In this document: piece by piece, positions 15,890 to 24,377 of the stretch
Numbering within the stretch: position 1 is the stretch's first letter
Layout of the letters: every line of letters begins with the position of its first letter
Origin: Albidovulum sediminicola
Lineage (GTDB): Bacteria > Pseudomonadota > Alphaproteobacteria > Rhodobacterales > Rhodobacteraceae
DNA: 64,000 bases
Assembly (NCBI RefSeq): GCF_025751575.1
Contig: NZ_JAOWLA010000011.1
Location: 1 to 64,000, forward strand
Reading direction: 5' to 3'
Translations under genes and position numbers: made by a program
Notes under the pieces: model-generated
What the model saw: only the letters and a program-made list of their open reading frames with translations
The model's database searches: none
What the model was told of the DNA's origin: nothing

Positions 15890-16019
15890 TCGGGGGGTGA
15901 ATGCGTCAGCCGCCCGGCGACCGGGGGGCGCCCGGACGGCCCCACAAGGGGCGCCGCGAATTGCGCAATTGACCGGCGGGGTTGAAGCGACCACGTTGGA
16001 GCCGGCGAAAGGACCCGCG

Positions 16020-17534
16020 ATGAGCAAGCAGAGCGCGCCCGGCAACGGGCTGAAGATACGGCGCCTGGGCATCGACACCGGCCATGACTTTGTCATCTAC
16101 ATGCGCCGGGATTGCCATGTCTGCCGGTCCGAGGGGTTCACGGCCCATACCCGCATCGAGGTCGATTCAGGCGACCGCAAGATCACCGCGGTCCTGAACA
16201 TCGTCAATCACGGCCTTCTCCTGCAGGGCGAGGCAGGCTTGTCGGAGCGGGCCTGGACGAAACTCGGCGTGTCCGAGGGGCATGTCGTCACGGTGCGCTA
16301 CGCCAAACCGCTCGATTCCCTCAGCCAGGTGCGGGCGAAGATCTATGGCAAGCGCATCGACCCGGACGGTTTCCTCGACGTGCTGGGCGATGTCGTCTCG
16401 GGGCGCTATTCGGACATTCACCTGTCCTCCTTCATCACGGCCTGCGCGGCCCAGGCGCTCGACACCAATGAGGTCAGCGCCCTGACCGCCGCCATGATCG
16501 AGACCGGCGACCAGGTCAGCTGGCCCAACAGTCCCATCGCGGACAAGCATTGCGTGGGCGGCCTGCCCGGCAACCGGACGACGCCGATCGTCGTTTCCAT
16601 CGCGGCGGCCTGCGGGCTGACCATTCCCAAGACCTCGTCGCGGGCGATCACCTCGCCGGCGGGGACGGCCGACACGATGGAGACCCTCGCCCCCGTCAAC
16701 CTGAGCGCCGCGGCGATGCGGCGCGTCGTCGAGCGCGAGGGGGGATGCATCGTCTGGGGTGGCGCGGTCGATCTGAGCCCGGCGGACGATATCCTGATCC
16801 GGGTGGAACGGGCGCTCGACCTCGACAGCGAGGGGCAGCTGGTCGCCTCGGTCCTGTCGAAGAAGATCGCGGCGGGCTCATCCCACGTCGTCATCGACAT
16901 TCCCGTCGGCGAGACGGCAAAGATCCGCAGCGCCGCCGCGGCCGCCTCGCTCGCGCGGATCATGACCGAGGTCGCGCATCGCTTCGACCTCAAGCTCGCG
17001 GTGACGACCAGCGACGGCAGCCAGCCCGTCGGCCGCGGCATCGGCCCGGCTCTGGAGGCGCGCGATGTGCTTGCGGTGCTGCAGGGCAAGGACAGCGCCC
17101 CCGCCGATCTGAGGGCACATGCCCTGACGCTGGCCGGGTCGCTTCTGGAACTCTGCGGCACGGCAGCAGAGGGCGCGGGGGAGGATATGGCCGCGCAGAC
17201 CCTGGCCAGCGGTCAGGCCTGGGCCAAGTTCCAGGCCATCTGCGAGGCGCAGGGCGGCATGCGCGTGCCCCCGGTCGCGGACCATCGCAAGCCTGTCCTG
17301 GCGACCCGAAGCGGCCGGGTGAGCGCCCTCGACAACCGCAAGATCGCGCGTGCCGCGAGGCTCGCCGGTGCGCCGGTCTCCAAGGCGGCGGGGCTGGAGA
17401 TGCACATCCGGCTTGGCGACACGGTCGAGGCCGGGCAACCGCTTTTCACCCTGCACGCCTCGGCATCCGGTGAACTGAACTACGCACTGGATTACATCGG
17501 CACCCACCAGCCCGTCATCGTGATCGAGCCATGA
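16020..17534 (+). CDS. NMP (AMP/thymidine) phosphorylase family protein
   Basis: A 504-residue member of the pyrimidine-nucleoside/AMP phosphorylase family. The signature SSRAITSPAGTADTMETL (about residues 202-219) matches the thymidine-phosphorylase pattern. The N-terminal extension of about 90 residues before the helical domain is characteristic of the archaeal AMP phosphorylase type (about 500 residues) and not of ordinary DeoA (about 440). AMP phosphorylases release a base and ribose-1,5-bisphosphate from nucleoside 5'-monophosphates. The C-terminal HIRLGDTVEAGQPLFTLHA is the usual barrel-sandwich end. The start at 16020 (MSKQSAPG) is the first reasonable ATG; AAAGGACC precedes it. It overlaps the PRPP-synthetase-like gene by 4 bp, so the two are coupled. 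Confidence 0.85.
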   Translation: MSKQSAPGNGLKIRRLGIDTGHDFVIYMRRDCHVCRSEGFTAHTRIEVDSGDRKITAVLNIVNHGLLLQGEAGLSERAWTKLGVSEGHVVTVRYAKPLDSLSQVRAKIYGKRIDPDGFLDVLGDVVSGRYSDIHLSSFITACAAQALDTNEVSALTAAMIETGDQVSWPNSPIADKHCVGGLPGNRTTPIVVSIAAACGLTIPKTSSRAITSPAGTADTMETLAPVNLSAAAMRRVVEREGGCIVWGGAVDLSPADDILIRVERALDLDSEGQLVASVLSKKIAAGSSHVVIDIPVGETAKIRSAAAAASLARIMTEVAHRFDLKLAVTTSDGSQPVGRGIGPALEARDVLAVLQGKDSAPADLRAHALTLAGSLLELCGTAAEGAGEDMAAQTLASGQAWAKFQAICEAQGGMRVPPVADHRKPVLATRSGRVSALDNRKIARAARLAGAPVSKAAGLEMHIRLGDTVEAGQPLFTLHASASGELNYALDYIGTHQPVIVIEP

Positions 17535-18415
17535 CCTGCGCCCTTGTCGCCCTGCCCGGAAACGAAGCCTTTACAGCAACCCTTGCCAAGGCCCTAGGGA
17601 CGGAGGTTCTGAAGGTCACCTGGCACCGCTTCCCCGACGGGGAAACCAACCTTCGCTTCGACACTTCGCCCGCGGGGCGCAGCATCGCGATCGTCGCCAC
17701 GCTCGACCGCCCCGACGCGAAACTTCTGCCGCTGGCCTTCTGCGCCGCCACGGCGCGCGACCTGGGCGCCCCGCGCGTGGGGCTCGTCGCCCCCTATCTT
17801 TGCTACATGCGCCAGGACCGCCGGTTCGTCGCAGGTGAAGGGATCACCGCGCATTACTTCCCCCGGATGATTGCCCAGTGGTTCGACTGGATGGTCACCG
17901 CCGACCCGCATCTGCACCGCATCCACGACCTGTCCGAGGTCTATCCGATCCCGACGCGCGTGGTGCATTGCGCCGAAGCAGCGGGCCGCTGGATCAAGGC
18001 GCATATCGACCGGCCGCTGATCGTCGGTCCGGACGAGGAAAGCGCGCAATGGGCCGACGTCATCGCGCAAACAGCCGGCGCGCCCGCGATCGTCCTGCGC
18101 AAGACGCGCCACGGCGACAAGGACGTGACCGTCGAAATCCCGAACCTTTCCGAATGGGCGGGCTACCAGCCGGTCCTGGTGGACGACATCGTCTCAAGCG
18201 GGCATTCGATGGTGGAAACCATCCGTCGCCTCCGGGCGCAGGGTCTGGCGGCCCCCTGGAGCGTCGCGGTCCACGCCGTCTTCGCGGGCAGCGCCGAGGC
18301 AGAGATCCGCGCCGCCGGCATCACGGGCCTGGCGACCTGCAACACGATCGTGCATCCGACGAACGCGATCGACGTGGCCGGGCTCTTCATCGACCCGGTC
18401 CGCGACCTGGTCTGA
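17531..18415 (+). CDS. ribose-phosphate pyrophosphokinase (PRPP synthetase) homologue
   Basis: A 294-residue protein of the PRPP synthetase family. It has the N-terminal FPDGETNLRF motif, the ATP-binding YMRQDRRFVAGEG loop (about residue 91) and the C-terminal PRPP loop VLVDDIVSSGHSM (about 217-229, canonical VVDDIxxTGxT). It is a little shorter than housekeeping Prs (about 310) and its loop differs from canonical (SSGHS for TGGT), so it is probably a secondary paralogue. The ATGA overlap with the NMP phosphorylase suggests a shared pathway linking nucleotide breakdown to PRPP. The substrate (ribose-5-phosphate or ribose-1,5-bisphosphate) cannot be told from sequence. Confidence 0.85.
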   Translation: MTCALVALPGNEAFTATLAKALGTEVLKVTWHRFPDGETNLRFDTSPAGRSIAIVATLDRPDAKLLPLAFCAATARDLGAPRVGLVAPYLCYMRQDRRFVAGEGITAHYFPRMIAQWFDWMVTADPHLHRIHDLSEVYPIPTRVVHCAEAAGRWIKAHIDRPLIVGPDEESAQWADVIAQTAGAPAIVLRKTRHGDKDVTVEIPNLSEWAGYQPVLVDDIVSSGHSMVETIRRLRAQGLAAPWSVAVHAVFAGSAEAEIRAAGITGLATCNTIVHPTNAIDVAGLFIDPVRDLV

Positions 18416-18425
18416 CCGCGCCCGA

Positions 18426-18960
18426 TCAAAGCGTGAAGCGCCAATGCTTGCGGGGCATGTGGAGCCGCGTCTTTCGCATCGCCCGGGCGAATGCCTTCAT
18501 CGCTCTCTCGTCGCCACCGGCAAGGCAGGTGTCGGCGGGGCGAACGTCCTTCTGCGAAGCCAGAAGCTCCTGCTGATGGCATGGGCGGAAAAGCCGTCGA
18601 TCGTGTGGACGGTCGCGCGAATGCCGGCGCGACCTCGATCTCCTTCCCATCGGCCACCTGGCGGCCTAAGCAATCGAAGGCGTTGTTGGCGTCGAGGGTG
18701 CCCGTAGAGCGGGCCCGGCACCCTGCCGCCCACGGGCGATGGTGGCGCAACCGGTTCCGGTGATCCGCTTCCTGGATATGCGCCGGATCCAGTAGGACCA
18801 GCCGCGCAGGTTTCTGCGCGGGTCCCGTCGCGATGACATCCCCTGCGAAGCCGCGCCTGCGCAGAAGCGGAACGCGGCCGCAATGGTCCAGATGCGCATG
18901 CTTGAACCGGAGGCAGCCGTTCGCCGCCGGGGTCGAAGCCGAAGTCGCCACAATGACAAG
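18426..18960 (-). pseudogene. decayed beta-CASP metallo-beta-lactamase nuclease (RNase J/CPSF-like)
   Basis: Fragments of one protein are read in different reverse-strand frames. First, FKHAHLDHCGRVPLLRRRGF carries the HxHxDH zinc motif; then LVLLDPAHIQEAD; then VHTIDGFSAHA, the motif-4 SAHAD region with D missing. The end is RPADTCLAGGDERAMKAFAR with KTRLHMPRKHWRFTL*, typical of the C-terminus of MBL/beta-CASP RNA-processing enzymes. About 530 nt remain of an expected 1350, so a large internal part and the N-terminus are gone and at least two frameshifts exist. It faces the phosphorylase/PRPP-synthetase pair tail to tail. Confidence is high for the family and moderate for exact ends. Confidence 0.75.
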
Positions 18961-19690: not shown

Positions 19691-20488
19691 CTATTGCTGC
19701 GACACCTGGATCTGGATGTCCATCGACTCGCCTTGGCCGCCCAACCGGGTCCCGATGACGGGCGCCGCGTCTGCGTAGTCGAGGCCCGCCGCCAGACGCA
19801 CATAGCGATCATCCGGGCAGATCGCGTTCGCCACGTCGAAGCCGACCCAGCCCAGACCATCGACATGCGCCTCGGCCCAGGCGTGCATCGCCTCCTGCTC
19901 GATCCGACCGTCCAGCATCAGATAGCCCGAGACATAGCGCGCCGGCACGCCCATCTCTCGCGCGCAGGCGATGAAGGCGTGGGCCTGATCCTGGCAGACG
20001 CCGCGTCCGGCCGACAGTGCCGCCTCCGCGTCCCAGCCCGGGTCTGACGCGCCGACCTCGTAGACAACCGCCTGTTCCACCGCGGCCATGAGCGCGTGCA
20101 TCCGCGCCAGGGTGCCCTCGCCCTCGACCTGCCGCAGCAGCGCCTTGACCCCGACCCCGGCCCGCGTGCGCGGGCTGGGCCTGGCATAGAGCCAAAGCGG
20201 CGTAGGGCCGCGGTGCCGCCCGATGACGCCGTTGCCGTCGGCAAGCTCGACCTCCCCCACGCAGGTCACGACCAGTTCCGTCGCGTCGCGCTCGAAGCTG
20301 ATCAGTTCGACCATGTTGCCGTGGTGATCCCTGAAGGACAGCTCCTTGCGCCCGCCCGCCACCTGCGTGTCCCAGGACAGGACCCGCTGCGTGTCGCTGT
20401 CCCATGGGGTCTTGCGCAGTTGCTGGAGCCCGTATCTGACCGGATGGTCGAACCGATAGCGTGTCGCGTGAGAGATCTTCAGGCGCAT
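19691..20488 (-). CDS. transglutaminase-like family protein
   Basis: A 265-residue cytoplasmic protein with an N-terminal beta domain (MRLKISHATRYRFDHPVRYGLQQLRKTP) and a C-terminal transglutaminase core. The catalytic cysteine lies in GRGVCQDQAHAFIACARE (about residue 161), the histidine in MHAWAEAHVDGLGWVGFD and the Asp in the last FD. Proteins of this type sit in a conserved trio with an alpha-E protein and a circularly permuted ATP-grasp, predicted in the literature to form or process a peptide-like conjugate. It is the last gene of the operon, 4 bases from the alpha-E gene. Confidence 0.92.
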   Translation of the reverse strand: MRLKISHATRYRFDHPVRYGLQQLRKTPWDSDTQRVLSWDTQVAGGRKELSFRDHHGNMVELISFERDATELVVTCVGEVELADGNGVIGRHRGPTPLWLYARPSPRTRAGVGVKALLRQVEGEGTLARMHALMAAVEQAVVYEVGASDPGWDAEAALSAGRGVCQDQAHAFIACAREMGVPARYVSGYLMLDGRIEQEAMHAWAEAHVDGLGWVGFDVANAICPDDRYVRLAAGLDYADAAPVIGTRLGGQGESMDIQIQVSQQ

Positions 20489-20491
20489 GGC

Positions 20492-21433
20492 TTACTCATA
20501 GAAGCGATAACCGACCTCGATCTGGCGCCCGATCTCGGCCAGCAGGGTCAGCTGTTTCTGGATGAACTCGTACAGGCCGAAATCGAAGACCGCGTCGATG
20601 TCGCGCCTGAGGAAGGTCTGCTCGATATCCTCAACCCGGCCGAGCGCGGGGGACCGTTCCCCGTAGGCGCCCGCCAGGTATTCGAGGTTGTCGCGGATCT
20701 TGCCCATGCAGAAGGCCAGGCTGCGCGGCATCCGCCGGTCGAGGATCAGGAACTGCGCGATCTCCCTCGGGCCGGCGCCGGCGCCATATTCCATCCGGAA
20801 GCCGCCCCGCCCCGAGACGGCACGCAGGATCGTTTCCCATTGCACATTGTCCACCGCGGAGCCGACCGATGAAGCGGAGGGCAACAGGACGTAGTATTTC
20901 ACGTCAAGAATGCGCGCCGTGTTGTCGGCGCGTTCAAGGAACGTACCAATGCGCGCGAAATCGTAGATGTCGTTGCGCAGCATGGTGCCCTGCGTCGCCC
21001 CCCGCACCAGCGCGGCGCGCTGCCGGATCGTCCCCAGGACGCCCGGCAGGTCGCGTTCGCCAACCTTGCGCGAAAGAAGCTCCTGCGCGCGCATGTAGGC
21101 GCTGTTGGTCGCCTCCCAGACCTCATGGGTCAACGCGGTCCGCACCATCCGTGCGTTCTGCCGCGCCGCCGCGATGGAGGAAAGCACCGACGACGGGTTC
21201 GCCGGATCGCGCAACATCCAGTCGATGGCGGCGTCCTTGGTCAGCGTCTCATGCGCCGCGTCGTAGCCCGCCGCAACGCCCGCGGTCTGAAGAATGGACC
21301 GCCATTCGTCGTCCGAGGCCCCCAGCCGGGTCAGGGCAATGCGCTGGCCCGTCTCGATCAGGCGAGAGGTGTTTTCCGCCCGTTCCAGGTAGCGGTACAT
21401 CCAGAAAAGCCCGTTGGCCGTCTTGCCCAGCAC
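20492..21433 (-). CDS. alpha-E domain-containing protein
   Basis: A 313-residue, almost all-helical protein of the alpha-E family. It opens with MLGKTANGLFWMYRYLERAENTSRLI, the family hallmark (GLFWMyRYlERAEntARL), and later shows FLERADNTARILDVKYYVLLP, a repeat of the same helix motif. The biochemical role is unproven. It always accompanies ATP-grasp and transglutaminase genes, as here, and may hold the substrate or act as a scaffold. It is coupled to both neighbours, with 3-4 base gaps. Confidence 0.93.
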   Translation of the reverse strand: MLGKTANGLFWMYRYLERAENTSRLIETGQRIALTRLGASDDEWRSILQTAGVAAGYDAAHETLTKDAAIDWMLRDPANPSSVLSSIAAARQNARMVRTALTHEVWEATNSAYMRAQELLSRKVGERDLPGVLGTIRQRAALVRGATQGTMLRNDIYDFARIGTFLERADNTARILDVKYYVLLPSASSVGSAVDNVQWETILRAVSGRGGFRMEYGAGAGPREIAQFLILDRRMPRSLAFCMGKIRDNLEYLAGAYGERSPALGRVEDIEQTFLRRDIDAVFDFGLYEFIQKQLTLLAEIGRQIEVGYRFYE

Positions 21434-21436
21434 CGC

Positions 21437-22861
21437 TCAGTCCTCCAGCACCCAGGTGTCCTTCGTGCCGCCCCCCTGAGAGGAGTTGACGACGAGCGAT
21501 CCCTTCTTGAGCGCGACACGCGTCAGCCCGCCGGGCGTGATCTTGATCCCGTCGGGGCCCATCAGCACGAAGGGGCGAAGATCGACATGCCGCGGGCTCA
21601 GCCCCGCGCGCGAGAAGACGGGCACGGTGGACAGGCTGAGCGTCGGCTGCGCGATGTAGTTCGAGGGCCGCGCCATCAGTTTCTGGCGGAACGCGGCCAG
21701 TTCCTTCTTGCTTGATGTGGGGCCGATCAGCATGCCGTAGCCGCCCGACCCGTGGACCTCCTTCACGACCAGTTCGTCGAGATGGGCAAGCACATGGGCC
21801 AGCGCCTCCGGCTCGGAACAGCGCCAGGTCGGCACATTGCCCAGAAGCGGCCGTTCGCCGGTATAGAACTCCACGATCTCGGGCATGTAGGAATAGATCG
21901 CCTTGTCGTCGGCGATCCCGGTGCCGGGCGCGTTGGCGATCGTGATGCCCCCGGCGCGGTAGACATCCATGATACCGGGCACGCCCAGCGCGCTTTCAGG
22001 ATTGAAGTTCAGCGGGTCGAGGAAATCGTCGTCAACCCGGCGATAGAGCACGTCGATGGGTTTGTAGCCCTGCGTGGTGCGCATCGCGACGCGCCCATCG
22101 ACCACGCGCAGGTCATGCCCCTCGACCAGTTCGACGCCCATTTGGTCGGCTAGGAAGGCGTGTTCGAAGTAGGCGGAATTGTAGATCCCCGGCGTCAGCA
22201 CCGCCACCGTCGGGTTGGACCCGGCGCATTGCGGCGCCGAAGCCGCGAGCGATCGCAGCAGATCGGCCGGATAGGTCTGCACCGGCTGCACCCGGTTGCG
22301 CGCGAAAAGCTCCGGGAACATCTGGAGCATGGTTTCGCGGTTTTCGAGCATGTAGCTCACCCCGGAGGGCGTGCGGGCGTTGTCCTCCAGCACATAGAAT
22401 TCATCCGGGCCGGTCCGAACCAGGTCGATCCCCACGATATGGGTGTAGATCCCGCCCGGTGGCGAAACACCGATCATATGGGGCAGGAAGGCCTCATTCC
22501 GGCTGATCATCTCGGCGGGCAGGCGGCCGGCCTTGATCATCTCCTGCCCATGGTAGATGTCGTAGAGGAAGGCGTTGATGGCGCGGACACGCTGTTCGAT
22601 CCCGCGCGACAGGCGGAGCCACTCGCCCCCCGACACGATGCGCGGGATGATGTCGAAGGGGATCAGACGCTCCTCGGCCTCGGCGCGGCCGTAGACGTTG
22701 AAGGTGATGCCGGTCAGGCGGAACAGGTCCTCCGCCTCGCGTTGCTTGGCGCGCAGGCGTTTGGGGTCCTCCGCGCCGAGCCAGTCGTTGAAACTGCGAT
22801 AGGGCTCACGCAGCGCCCCCGCGCGGCCCCACATCTCATCAAAGATCGATTCTTCGCCCAT
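21437..22861 (-). CDS. circularly permuted ATP-grasp protein (type 2)
   Basis: A 474-residue ATP-grasp ligase in which the ATP-binding subdomains are permuted. Visible motifs include GIEQRVRAINAFLYDIYHGQ near the N-terminus, GIDLVRTGPDEFYVLEDNAR (about 155) with acidic ligands, and ELVVKEVHGSGGYGMLIGP (about 370), containing the glycine-rich ATP-lid. ATP-grasp enzymes join a carboxylate to an amine or thiol with ATP hydrolysis. The start chosen at 22861 (MGEESIFDEM) gives the usual family length; the longer upstream frame overlaps the divergent region. First gene of the trio with alpha-E and transglutaminase. Confidence 0.93.
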   Translation of the reverse strand: MGEESIFDEMWGRAGALREPYRSFNDWLGAEDPKRLRAKQREAEDLFRLTGITFNVYGRAEAEERLIPFDIIPRIVSGGEWLRLSRGIEQRVRAINAFLYDIYHGQEMIKAGRLPAEMISRNEAFLPHMIGVSPPGGIYTHIVGIDLVRTGPDEFYVLEDNARTPSGVSYMLENRETMLQMFPELFARNRVQPVQTYPADLLRSLAASAPQCAGSNPTVAVLTPGIYNSAYFEHAFLADQMGVELVEGHDLRVVDGRVAMRTTQGYKPIDVLYRRVDDDFLDPLNFNPESALGVPGIMDVYRAGGITIANAPGTGIADDKAIYSYMPEIVEFYTGERPLLGNVPTWRCSEPEALAHVLAHLDELVVKEVHGSGGYGMLIGPTSSKKELAAFRQKLMARPSNYIAQPTLSLSTVPVFSRAGLSPRHVDLRPFVLMGPDGIKITPGGLTRVALKKGSLVVNSSQGGGTKDTWVLED

Positions 22862-23135
22862 GGCCCACCTTCGACGCGCAATCGTGCCGGAATCCATCCG
22901 CCAGCAGGCCCGGCGACCACGCATTCCGGATTTGCCCGCAATTCGCGCAATTCCCAGCCCCGACGGGCAAAAAAAGCGGCGCCCCCAAAGGCGCCGGACC
23001 TTGCCCGGCGGGCTTGACCCGCCCCCAAAAAGCGCCGAAGCCTCTGCCATGGGCTTCCCGCCACTGGTCCCGCGACGCGGAGCGCATGGCGCCCAGCCGG
23101 CCGAAGCCCCGGTCGCCCCCGGGCGGAGAGGACGG

Positions 23136-24377
23136 ATGGTCAAGCGCAGAACGACCCTGACCACGTTGCTTGGCCTGATCTTTCTGGCCACATGGGCCGC
23201 ATTTCCGCTTCATGCCGAAACGCGGCTTCGCGCGCTTTTCATGGAGGGGAGCGCCTACGGCGATGCCGAAATCCGCGCAATGACCGGGCGTTTCACCGCC
23301 GCCCATCCCGAGATGCGCGTGACGCTGGATTTCGCCCCATATGAGGATCTGAGGGATCTGACGCTGGGCGCCACCGACAGCGGCACGGGCTATGACGTGG
23401 TGGTCTTCGATGCGATCTGGCCCGCTGAGTATGCGGACCGCCAAATCCTCCTCGACGTGACGGCGCGCATCACGCCTGAGATGCGCGCGGGCATCCTGCC
23501 TGGCGCCTGGACGACGGTCGATTACGCGGGCCATAGCTATGGGCTGCCATGGCTGCTCGACACCAAGTACCTGTTCTACAACAAGCAGATCCTGGCGCGC
23601 GCAGGCATCCCGGCGCCCCCCGCCACCTGGGAGGCGCTCCTGGAACAGGCGCGGATCATCGCGGACAAGGGGATCCTTGACCATCCCGTGGTCTGGGGCT
23701 GGGCCGGCACCGAGGGGATCGTCTGCGACTTCACGACGCTGGTCGCAGCCTTCGGCGGGCGCTTCGCGCCGGATGGAACGACCACCGGGAACCCCGGCGC
23801 GGCGGGCGAGGCGCTGCGCTACATGGTGGAAAGCCATGCCTCGGGCCTCGCGCATCCCGGCTCGATCGGGTTTCAGGACGAGGACGTGCGCCGCGTCTTC
23901 GAAAGCGGCCAGGCGGCTTTCGCCCTCAACTGGTCCTACATGTACCGGCTTTCGAACAATCACCGCGACAGTGGGGTCGCGGGCAGCGTCGGCATCGCCC
24001 CCGCACCCGGTGCGGTGGGCCACAGCCTGTCCGCCGCCGTCAATGGGTCCATGGGCCTCGGGATCACCGCGCGAAGCCCCAACCCCGACGCGGCATGGGA
24101 CTACGTCGCGTTCCTTACGAACCCGGCAGAGCAGAACGCCCAAGCGCAGTCGAGCCTGCCGGTCTGGGCGGCGTCTTATGATGATCCTGCGGTGACCACC
24201 GGCCAGCGCGCGTTGGTCGATGCCGGCCGAATCGCCCTTCGCGACATGATCCCGCGGCCCGCGACCCCACGCTACCAAGGCCTGTCAGAGGCATTGCAGA
24301 CCGCGATCCGCGACGCCCTTCTTGGCCGCGCAACCCCCGAAGAGGCACTCGCCGCAGCAGCGGCAATCGGCAACTGA
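23136..24377 (+). CDS. ABC-type extracellular solute-binding protein (sugar type), orphan
   Basis: A 413-residue secreted protein with a Sec signal (MVKRRTTLTTLLGLIFLATWAAFPLHA, cleavage after about residue 27) and a family-1 sugar-binding fold: DVVVFDAIWPAEYADRQIL, YGLPWLLDTKYLFYNKQILA and the aromatic YLFYNK motif typical of maltose-binding-protein-like proteins. GGAGAGG precedes ATG 23136. No permease or ATPase gene is next to it; it lies between the divergent ATP-grasp operon and a lipoprotein gene, so it must work with distant components or act as a sensor. Confidence 0.88.
   Translation: MVKRRTTLTTLLGLIFLATWAAFPLHAETRLRALFMEGSAYGDAEIRAMTGRFTAAHPEMRVTLDFAPYEDLRDLTLGATDSGTGYDVVVFDAIWPAEYADRQILLDVTARITPEMRAGILPGAWTTVDYAGHSYGLPWLLDTKYLFYNKQILARAGIPAPPATWEALLEQARIIADKGILDHPVVWGWAGTEGIVCDFTTLVAAFGGRFAPDGTTTGNPGAAGEALRYMVESHASGLAHPGSIGFQDEDVRRVFESGQAAFALNWSYMYRLSNNHRDSGVAGSVGIAPAPGAVGHSLSAAVNGSMGLGITARSPNPDAAWDYVAFLTNPAEQNAQAQSSLPVWAASYDDPAVTTGQRALVDAGRIALRDMIPRPATPRYQGLSEALQTAIRDALLGRATPEEALAAAAAIGN

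Follow-up and report, generated by a model that had tools for sequence, protein, structure and literature searches.

Background

In Thermococcus kodakarensis, nucleoside monophosphates (NMPs) are converted to ribose-1,5-bisphosphate (R15P) by an NMP (AMP) phosphorylase, which is followed by R15P isomerase and RuBisCO (PMC9700705). Bacteria of the Candidate Phyla Radiation (CPR) salvage nucleotides through NMP phosphorylase and RuBisCO (PMC7304191). In Bradyrhizobium diazoefficiens, the genes bll3117-bll3116-bll3115, annotated as a phosphorylase, a phosphoribosyl pyrophosphate (PRPP) synthetase (Prs) and a metallo-beta-lactamase (MBL) protein, form a predicted operon that is listed as raised in microoxia along with the phosphoketolase bll2518 (PMC6515984). 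Here we describe a locus from Albidovulum sediminicola, located in the first 64,000 nucleotides of contig NZ_JAOWLA010000011.1 (the window), where a homologue of the long-form NMP phosphorylase is coupled to a Prs paralogue and faces a decayed beta-CASP nuclease. The genes belong to a conserved, patchily spread bacterial operon, of which the window holds a reduced copy.

RNA is the largest ribose store in most cells, and the operon, widespread in bacteria and reduced in the window's genome, looks, from its gene content, made for using RNA ribose. No account of a pairing between beta-CASP and thymidine phosphorylase proteins was found in an open-licence library, and the available parts of PMC6515984 and PMC9104804 contain no pathway proposal for bll3117-3115.

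Results and discussion

A conserved operon, reduced in the window

The phosphorylase and Prs genes of the window share a 4-bp overlap, and the nuclease remnant lies tail to tail with the Prs paralogue (Table 1). Both features had been claimed in a preliminary description of the DNA and are confirmed, the former by the ends of the reading frames and the latter by a tblastn match and by motifs standing in separate frames. The G+C content is 68.6% and 67.9% in the pair, 63.9% in the remnant region and 67.6% in the window.

Table 1 Coordinates of the features discussed (window positions, or locus:positions for relatives)
Feature	Position	Strand	Evidence and remarks
Long-form NMP/AMP-phosphorylase homologue	16020..17534	+	Profile matches; annotated elsewhere as thymidine phosphorylase family protein; ATG at 16020, possible start 15897 (open reading frame 15897-17534)
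Overlap of phosphorylase and Prs genes	17531..17534	+	Open reading frame ends
Prs paralogue, altered (presumed pyrophosphate) loop GPDEESAQW at residues 166-174	17531..18415	+	Profile match, alignment, model
Beta-CASP nuclease remnant: HAHLDH region, and DGFSAH in another frame	18581..18930	-	tblastn, motifs
Transglutaminase-like, Alpha-E and circularly permuted ATP-grasp genes, consecutive	19691-23191	-	Pfam matches
Divergent phosphoketolase (examples)	L101:6108-8477, L040:6535-8904, L102:7569-9983		Nine further loci
Type II glyceraldehyde-3-phosphate dehydrogenase (GAPDH), archaeal-type, near the triad in bacteria	L096:3185-4201		14 other loci
ATP-cone + Mrr_cat restriction-endonuclease-like protein, 280 aa	L055:5957-6799		28 other loci, mostly Bacteroidota

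In a survey of 196 genomes of the order, the Prs paralogue exceeded the cut-off in five, the window's included; in each of the remaining four, the cluster also contains an intact beta-CASP gene. A contig scan with the Prs alignment confirmed 576 relatives, of which the best 80 were taken. Together the loci number 84; 58 of these are flanked by 4.5 kb or more in either direction and are used for the arrangement counts, while among the 26 loci set aside for short flanks the nuclease is visible in 15 and the phosphorylase in 22. Intact beta-CASP neighbours, which the preliminary description had proposed to look for in relatives, are present in 50 of the 58 full-flank loci, and the phosphorylase in 56, on which grounds a chance neighbourhood was rejected. 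The genes follow the same-strand order beta-CASP, phosphorylase, Prs in 43 loci and Prs, beta-CASP, phosphorylase in four; three further nuclease-containing orders occur once each, phosphorylase and Prs stand alone in seven loci, and Prs alone in one. Among relatives, 75 pairs have phosphorylase and Prs on the same strand, and 23 of them show exactly this 4-bp overlap. Nuclease-bearing loci come from Alpha-, Beta- and Gammaproteobacteria, Bacteroidota and Nitrospirota, while those of Planctomycetota (L108) and Acidobacteriota (L115) contain phosphorylase and Prs with no nuclease seen. A gammaproteobacterial metagenome-assembled genome (MAG; L101) has a window-like tail-to-tail layout with the nuclease intact. 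Many loci lie on MAG contigs, and some stem from the same organism or look identical (L093/L096, L090/L092), so they are not all independent.

The scan loci had been picked for the resemblance of their Prs to that of the window, and an evenly drawn set of 160 genomes of the phylum was therefore examined as well. The paralogue exceeded the cut-off in 23 of these (own included), and the operon is therefore not one strain's curiosity. Leaving the window's genome aside, 22 genomes contribute 23 loci; the phosphorylase adjoins the paralogue at 22 of them, and a nuclease can be seen at five, within flanks of 1.5 kb that are too short to exclude a nuclease elsewhere; five of the Prs matches (G233, G235, G225, G215, and G250) have one stop in the matched stretch. 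In a search for an empty site within the genus, the nearest relative (G205) had the flanking major facilitator superfamily gene, after which its contig diverges and ends.

Fifty-five of 56 intact relative nucleases match the remnant by tblastn (E <= 1e-3; best E 3.4e-10 at a search size of 5 Mb). The best 40 rows fall within 18930-18622 on the minus strand and cover approximately residues 52-165 of about 460. The HAHLDH motif (18883-18900) and the DGFSAH motif (18581-18598) are separated by about 300 nt, as opposed to about 1 kb in the intact copy L041, which indicates that the window's copy lacks its N-terminus and beta-CASP domain. Whereas the window holds a remnant only, L041 has all three of the MBL, beta-CASP and RMMBL domains, and its nearest solved relative is RNase TTHA0252. 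One RMMBL match was found in the window's genome, on contig C22.

A phosphorylase of the long, archaeal type

The window's phosphorylase exceeds the cut-offs of the archaeal-type long phosphorylase models NF003338 (683 bits, cut-off 434) and TIGR02645 (614.5 bits, cut-off 434.6), and its nearest solved relative is an archaeal AMP phosphorylase (PDB ID: 4ga5, 369 bits). It also fits the signature GGxPGN[RK]T, which replaces the canonical GGxGD and was derived from the alignments of this study rather than from a published rule. Of the 75 triad phosphorylases, 74 show the PGNRT pattern; the archaeal enzyme reads PGNKT. A separate canonical thymidine/pyrimidine phosphorylase is encoded on contig C1 of the same genome and reads GGIGDST.

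The N-terminus of the window's phosphorylase, beyond the region that aligns with the archaeal enzyme, contains DCHVCRSEG (residues ~31-39), with two cysteines and one histidine. A motif of this type is present in at least 41 of the 75 triad phosphorylases and could be a metal or redox site.

An altered loop in the Prs paralogue

The Prs homologue matches NF005537 with 388 bits (cut-off 322), and its structural model (pLDDT 92.1) matches Prs, so that both family and fold are those of Prs; the nearest solved relatives in sequence and structure searches are archaeal PRPP synthetases. The possibility that it is the housekeeping copy, which the preliminary description had named, combined with a phosphorylase that uses only thymidine, as fatal to its own proposal, was rejected: a full housekeeping Prs (363 bits) is encoded on contig C10, beside which the window's gene is a second copy.

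In Escherichia coli PRPP synthetase, ribose-5-phosphate (R5P) is contacted by D170, D220, D221, T225, and T228, and the nucleotide by F35, D37, R99, and H131 (PMC9232217). Counterparts matched by motif in the paralogue are F34, D36, H127, D168, D218, and D219, together with a similar R5P loop, and the catalytic-site residues H127, K191, R193, D218, and D219 (K191 and R193 within the flexible loop) are invariant across the 85 paralogues. The loop following D168, by contrast, reads SPDVGG..R in 26 of 26 housekeeping copies, all from one order, versus GPDxES.QW in 85 of 85 paralogues. We take it to be the pyrophosphate loop, holding the pyrophosphoryl part of PRPP. In place of PDxG[GA], the window reads PDEES; the first glycine is a glutamate (E170) in all 85 paralogues and in 22 of 22 further ones, where W174 is likewise invariant, S171 is present in 20, and Q173 in 16 (a count that left out L145, one of the 23 loci, whose motif is visible in its locus sequence). 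With this invariant glutamate, the loop carries an acidic side chain. In a tree with housekeeping rows from one order and no archaeal rows, a single branch with a support of 100 unites all 107 paralogue rows. The Prs paralogue probably has changed chemistry.

Three other explanations of the paralogue bear on the same residues. Retention of all compared R5P and nucleotide contacts, as well as the NCBIfam name of its family (ribose-phosphate diphosphokinase), would suit an ordinary PRPP synthetase that uses R5P and ATP and, with the phosphorylase, exchanges bases on nucleotides; given the full housekeeping Prs, the invariant loop change and the RNase in the operon, this appears quite improbable. 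The paralogue might instead be a non-catalytic partner in regulated RNA processing under stress, as human PAP39 and PAP41 are to PRPS. These proteins share the fold (structure search listing) and one catalytic loop is altered here, but the invariance of the catalytic-site residues makes this role very improbable. The third explanation, a PhnN-like phosphorylation of R15P with ATP to PRPP, by which the operon would salvage RNA into PRPP, draws on the Prs fold with its kept nucleotide and R5P sites and on the lack of any PhnN match over the cut-off in the window's genome. Against it stand the loop change common to all 85 paralogues, PhnN over the cut-off in two of five carriers, and the catabolic neighbours. 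It is one of several candidates, an unlikely one and not our first choice. The preliminary description had read the locus as such a route from RNA through R15P to PRPP; the widespread cassette, the second Prs and the broken nuclease stand, whereas the rewriting of the loop argues against ordinary PRPP chemistry and hence against the last step as written.

The window's own pair might be a relic that drifts and does little after the loss of its nuclease. The window's Prs keeps 51 of 54 conserved sites, its three departures being a maximum that it shares within the 85 rows; its end branch measures 0.58 against a median of 0.26, and the paralogue occurs in only five of the 196 genomes of the order. 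Yet both frames are full length, the Prs departures are conservative, the phosphorylase retains 120 of 122 sites that are at least 95% conserved, and seven other full-flank loci retain the pair without a nuclease. The end branch of the phosphorylase is 0.36 (median 0.26). A relic is conceivable, if rather unlikely.

Possible fates of ribose-1,5-bisphosphate

R15P isomerase (TIGR00511) exceeds the cut-off in none of 39 paralogue carriers. The five carriers of the order, the window's genome included, have no match at all, while ten of the 34 further carriers have sub-cut-off matches (136-219 bits), presumably to relatives of methylthioribose-phosphate isomerase. RuBisCO (PF00016) has no match in the window's genome either, which extends the earlier remark that none lies nearby; an exit of R15P through ribulose-1,5-bisphosphate and RuBisCO was rejected for this genome, which falls outside the pentose bisphosphate pathway. 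Its PhnN match (32 bits) is below the cut-off. The Prs paralogue is the only R15P-using candidate found in the window's genome, in a comparison that left phosphatases and phosphopentomutase aside.

A proposed pathway from RNA to the Prs-like enzyme

On these grounds, a route leading from RNA through NMPs and R15P to the Prs-like enzyme, whatever the last reaction, seems on balance mildly probable. The beta-CASP RNase of the intact operon would break RNA down to NMPs, and the long-form phosphorylase would convert NMP and phosphate to a free base and R15P. The Prs-like enzyme would then take R15P via the nucleotide and R5P sites of PRPP synthetase, and the resulting R5P might enter the pentose-phosphate or phosphoketolase route and central metabolism. 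Since the pyrophosphate pocket is altered, the likeliest single reaction of the Prs-like enzyme might be R15P + AMP -> R5P + ADP, a tentative assignment that is, taken by itself, doubtful. A single phosphoryl transfer between R15P and AMP or ADP would fit the altered loop, with bond and nucleotide site being those of PRPP synthesis in reverse, and the reaction with AMP would conserve the energy present in the 1-phosphate. In the window, where the nuclease is broken and phosphoketolase absent, the pair may use NMPs from general RNA turnover or be beginning to decay.

Several points weigh against this pathway. We infer every enzyme activity, as well as the direction of the Prs-like step, from sequence, and we know of no citable precedent for R15P + AMP -> R5P + ADP. 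The window's phosphorylase scores 500.2 bits with the AMP phosphorylase equivalog TIGR03327, below the cut-off of 535. PRPP synthesis is conceivable for the paralogue, because its substrate-site residues are kept. Another possible R15P user is present in three of the five order carriers, namely RuBisCO family members in two (G100 and G195) and PhnN in two (G054 and G195, with a third just under the cut-off). Eight of the 58 full-flank loci have no nuclease, and phosphoketolase exceeds the cut-off in only 14 of 34 further carriers (two marginal) and one of five order carriers.

Catabolic neighbours and a probable link to low oxygen

Neighbour clusters, each named from one representative, include a heavy-metal P-type ATPase (50 loci), D-lactate dehydrogenase (15), the type II GAPDH (15), class I aldolase (9), and phosphofructokinase (7); an acetate kinase gene lies at L102. 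The phosphoketolase cluster (14 loci) consists of two canonical members (L083 and L087) and 12 of a divergent family, which is thus found in 12 of 84 loci. Its members are 51-58% identical to that of L101 and 20-22% to canonical L087; the operon-linked protein scores 144 bits against a cut-off of 777, matches PF03894/PF09364 and keeps the histidines common to canonical copies. In ten of the 12 loci, the gene lies in or beside the triad operon: it overlaps a triad gene by 4 bp in six (L100, L102, L110, L116, L122, and L123), stands within 34 bp in three (L040, L101, and L113), and is beside the triad with an uncertain start in L118. Those of L089 and L120 are not adjacent. No phosphoketolase match was obtained in a profile search of the window's genome. 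The phosphoketolase, acetate kinase and glycolytic links in part of the relatives point no less to sugar catabolism than to nucleotide salvage.

Two neighbours are of separate interest. The ATP-cone + Mrr_cat gene is usually just upstream of the beta-CASP gene, and its product is possibly an ATP-sensing nuclease, to judge from its domains. The transglutaminase-like, Alpha-E and ATP-grasp genes of the window form a row that we take to be a recurrent uncharacterised set.

Expression of the operon is probably tied to low oxygen. The bll3117 operon of Bradyrhizobium has a FixK2 box at -74, and deletion of fixK2 lowers bll3117 6.6-fold, bll3115 30.6-fold, the phosphoketolase bll2518 10.0-fold and the acetate kinase bll2517 10.2-fold (PMC9104804). 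Three observations qualify this link. The likeness of bll3117-3115 to the window-type operon, with which it shares three annotations, was established by annotation names and not by sequence comparison, and the Bradyrhizobium genes differ in having the order phosphorylase-Prs-MBL on one strand and an annotated nuclease gene. The enrichment of FNR-like boxes is weak at best, with five exact TTGA-N6-TCAA matches in 31,466 bp upstream of the triad versus 1.6 expected (75 in 1,464,812 bp overall). Within 400 bp upstream of the window's pair there is no exact FNR/FixK box, a pattern that would also miss the published Bradyrhizobium box. A candidate with one mismatch at 16194 was discarded, as it lies inside the gene.

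Combining these elements, RNA could serve as a low-oxygen reserve, drawn on by an RNase, NMP phosphorylase, a Prs-derived R15P:AMP phosphotransferase and, in some lineages, the divergent phosphoketolase, yielding ATP and acetyl phosphate with no part for RuBisCO; in that case, the Prs paralogue would represent a new activity whose pocket is closed by the invariant glutamate. In this complete form the proposal is speculative and not likely to hold in every part. If true, an operon feeding RNA ribose into fermentation would provide a mechanism by which bacteria survive in soil, sediment and nodules that are short of oxygen, and it would assign a joint function to genes annotated as 'MBL fold metallo-hydrolase', 'ribose-phosphate diphosphokinase', and 'thymidine phosphorylase family protein'.

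Comparison with known systems

The operon shares a phosphorylase homologue with the archaeal NMP phosphorylase-R15P isomerase-RuBisCO pathway, but its genetic partners are an RNase and a Prs-like enzyme; R15P isomerase exceeds the cut-off in none of the 39 carriers, and the RuBisCO family is present in two of the five tested carriers and absent from the window's genome. CPR salvage likewise uses AMP phosphorylase in bacteria but proceeds through RuBisCO, and the available part of the source (PMC7304191) mentions neither an RNase nor a Prs-like enzyme. The operon-linked protein of relatives has the Pfam matches and histidines of xylulose-5-phosphate/fructose-6-phosphate phosphoketolase, from which it differs in its low identity to the canonical copy and in the absence of the family from the window's genome. 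Finally, the paralogue has the fold and the nucleotide and R5P contact residues of bacterial class I and archaeal PRPP synthetases, whereas its loop reads GPDxESxQW instead of SPDVGG (bacterial) or PDRGA/PDKGA (archaeal, read from two alignments only). Owing to the rewritten loop, the proposed use of RNA ribose can be put to a direct test in vitro.

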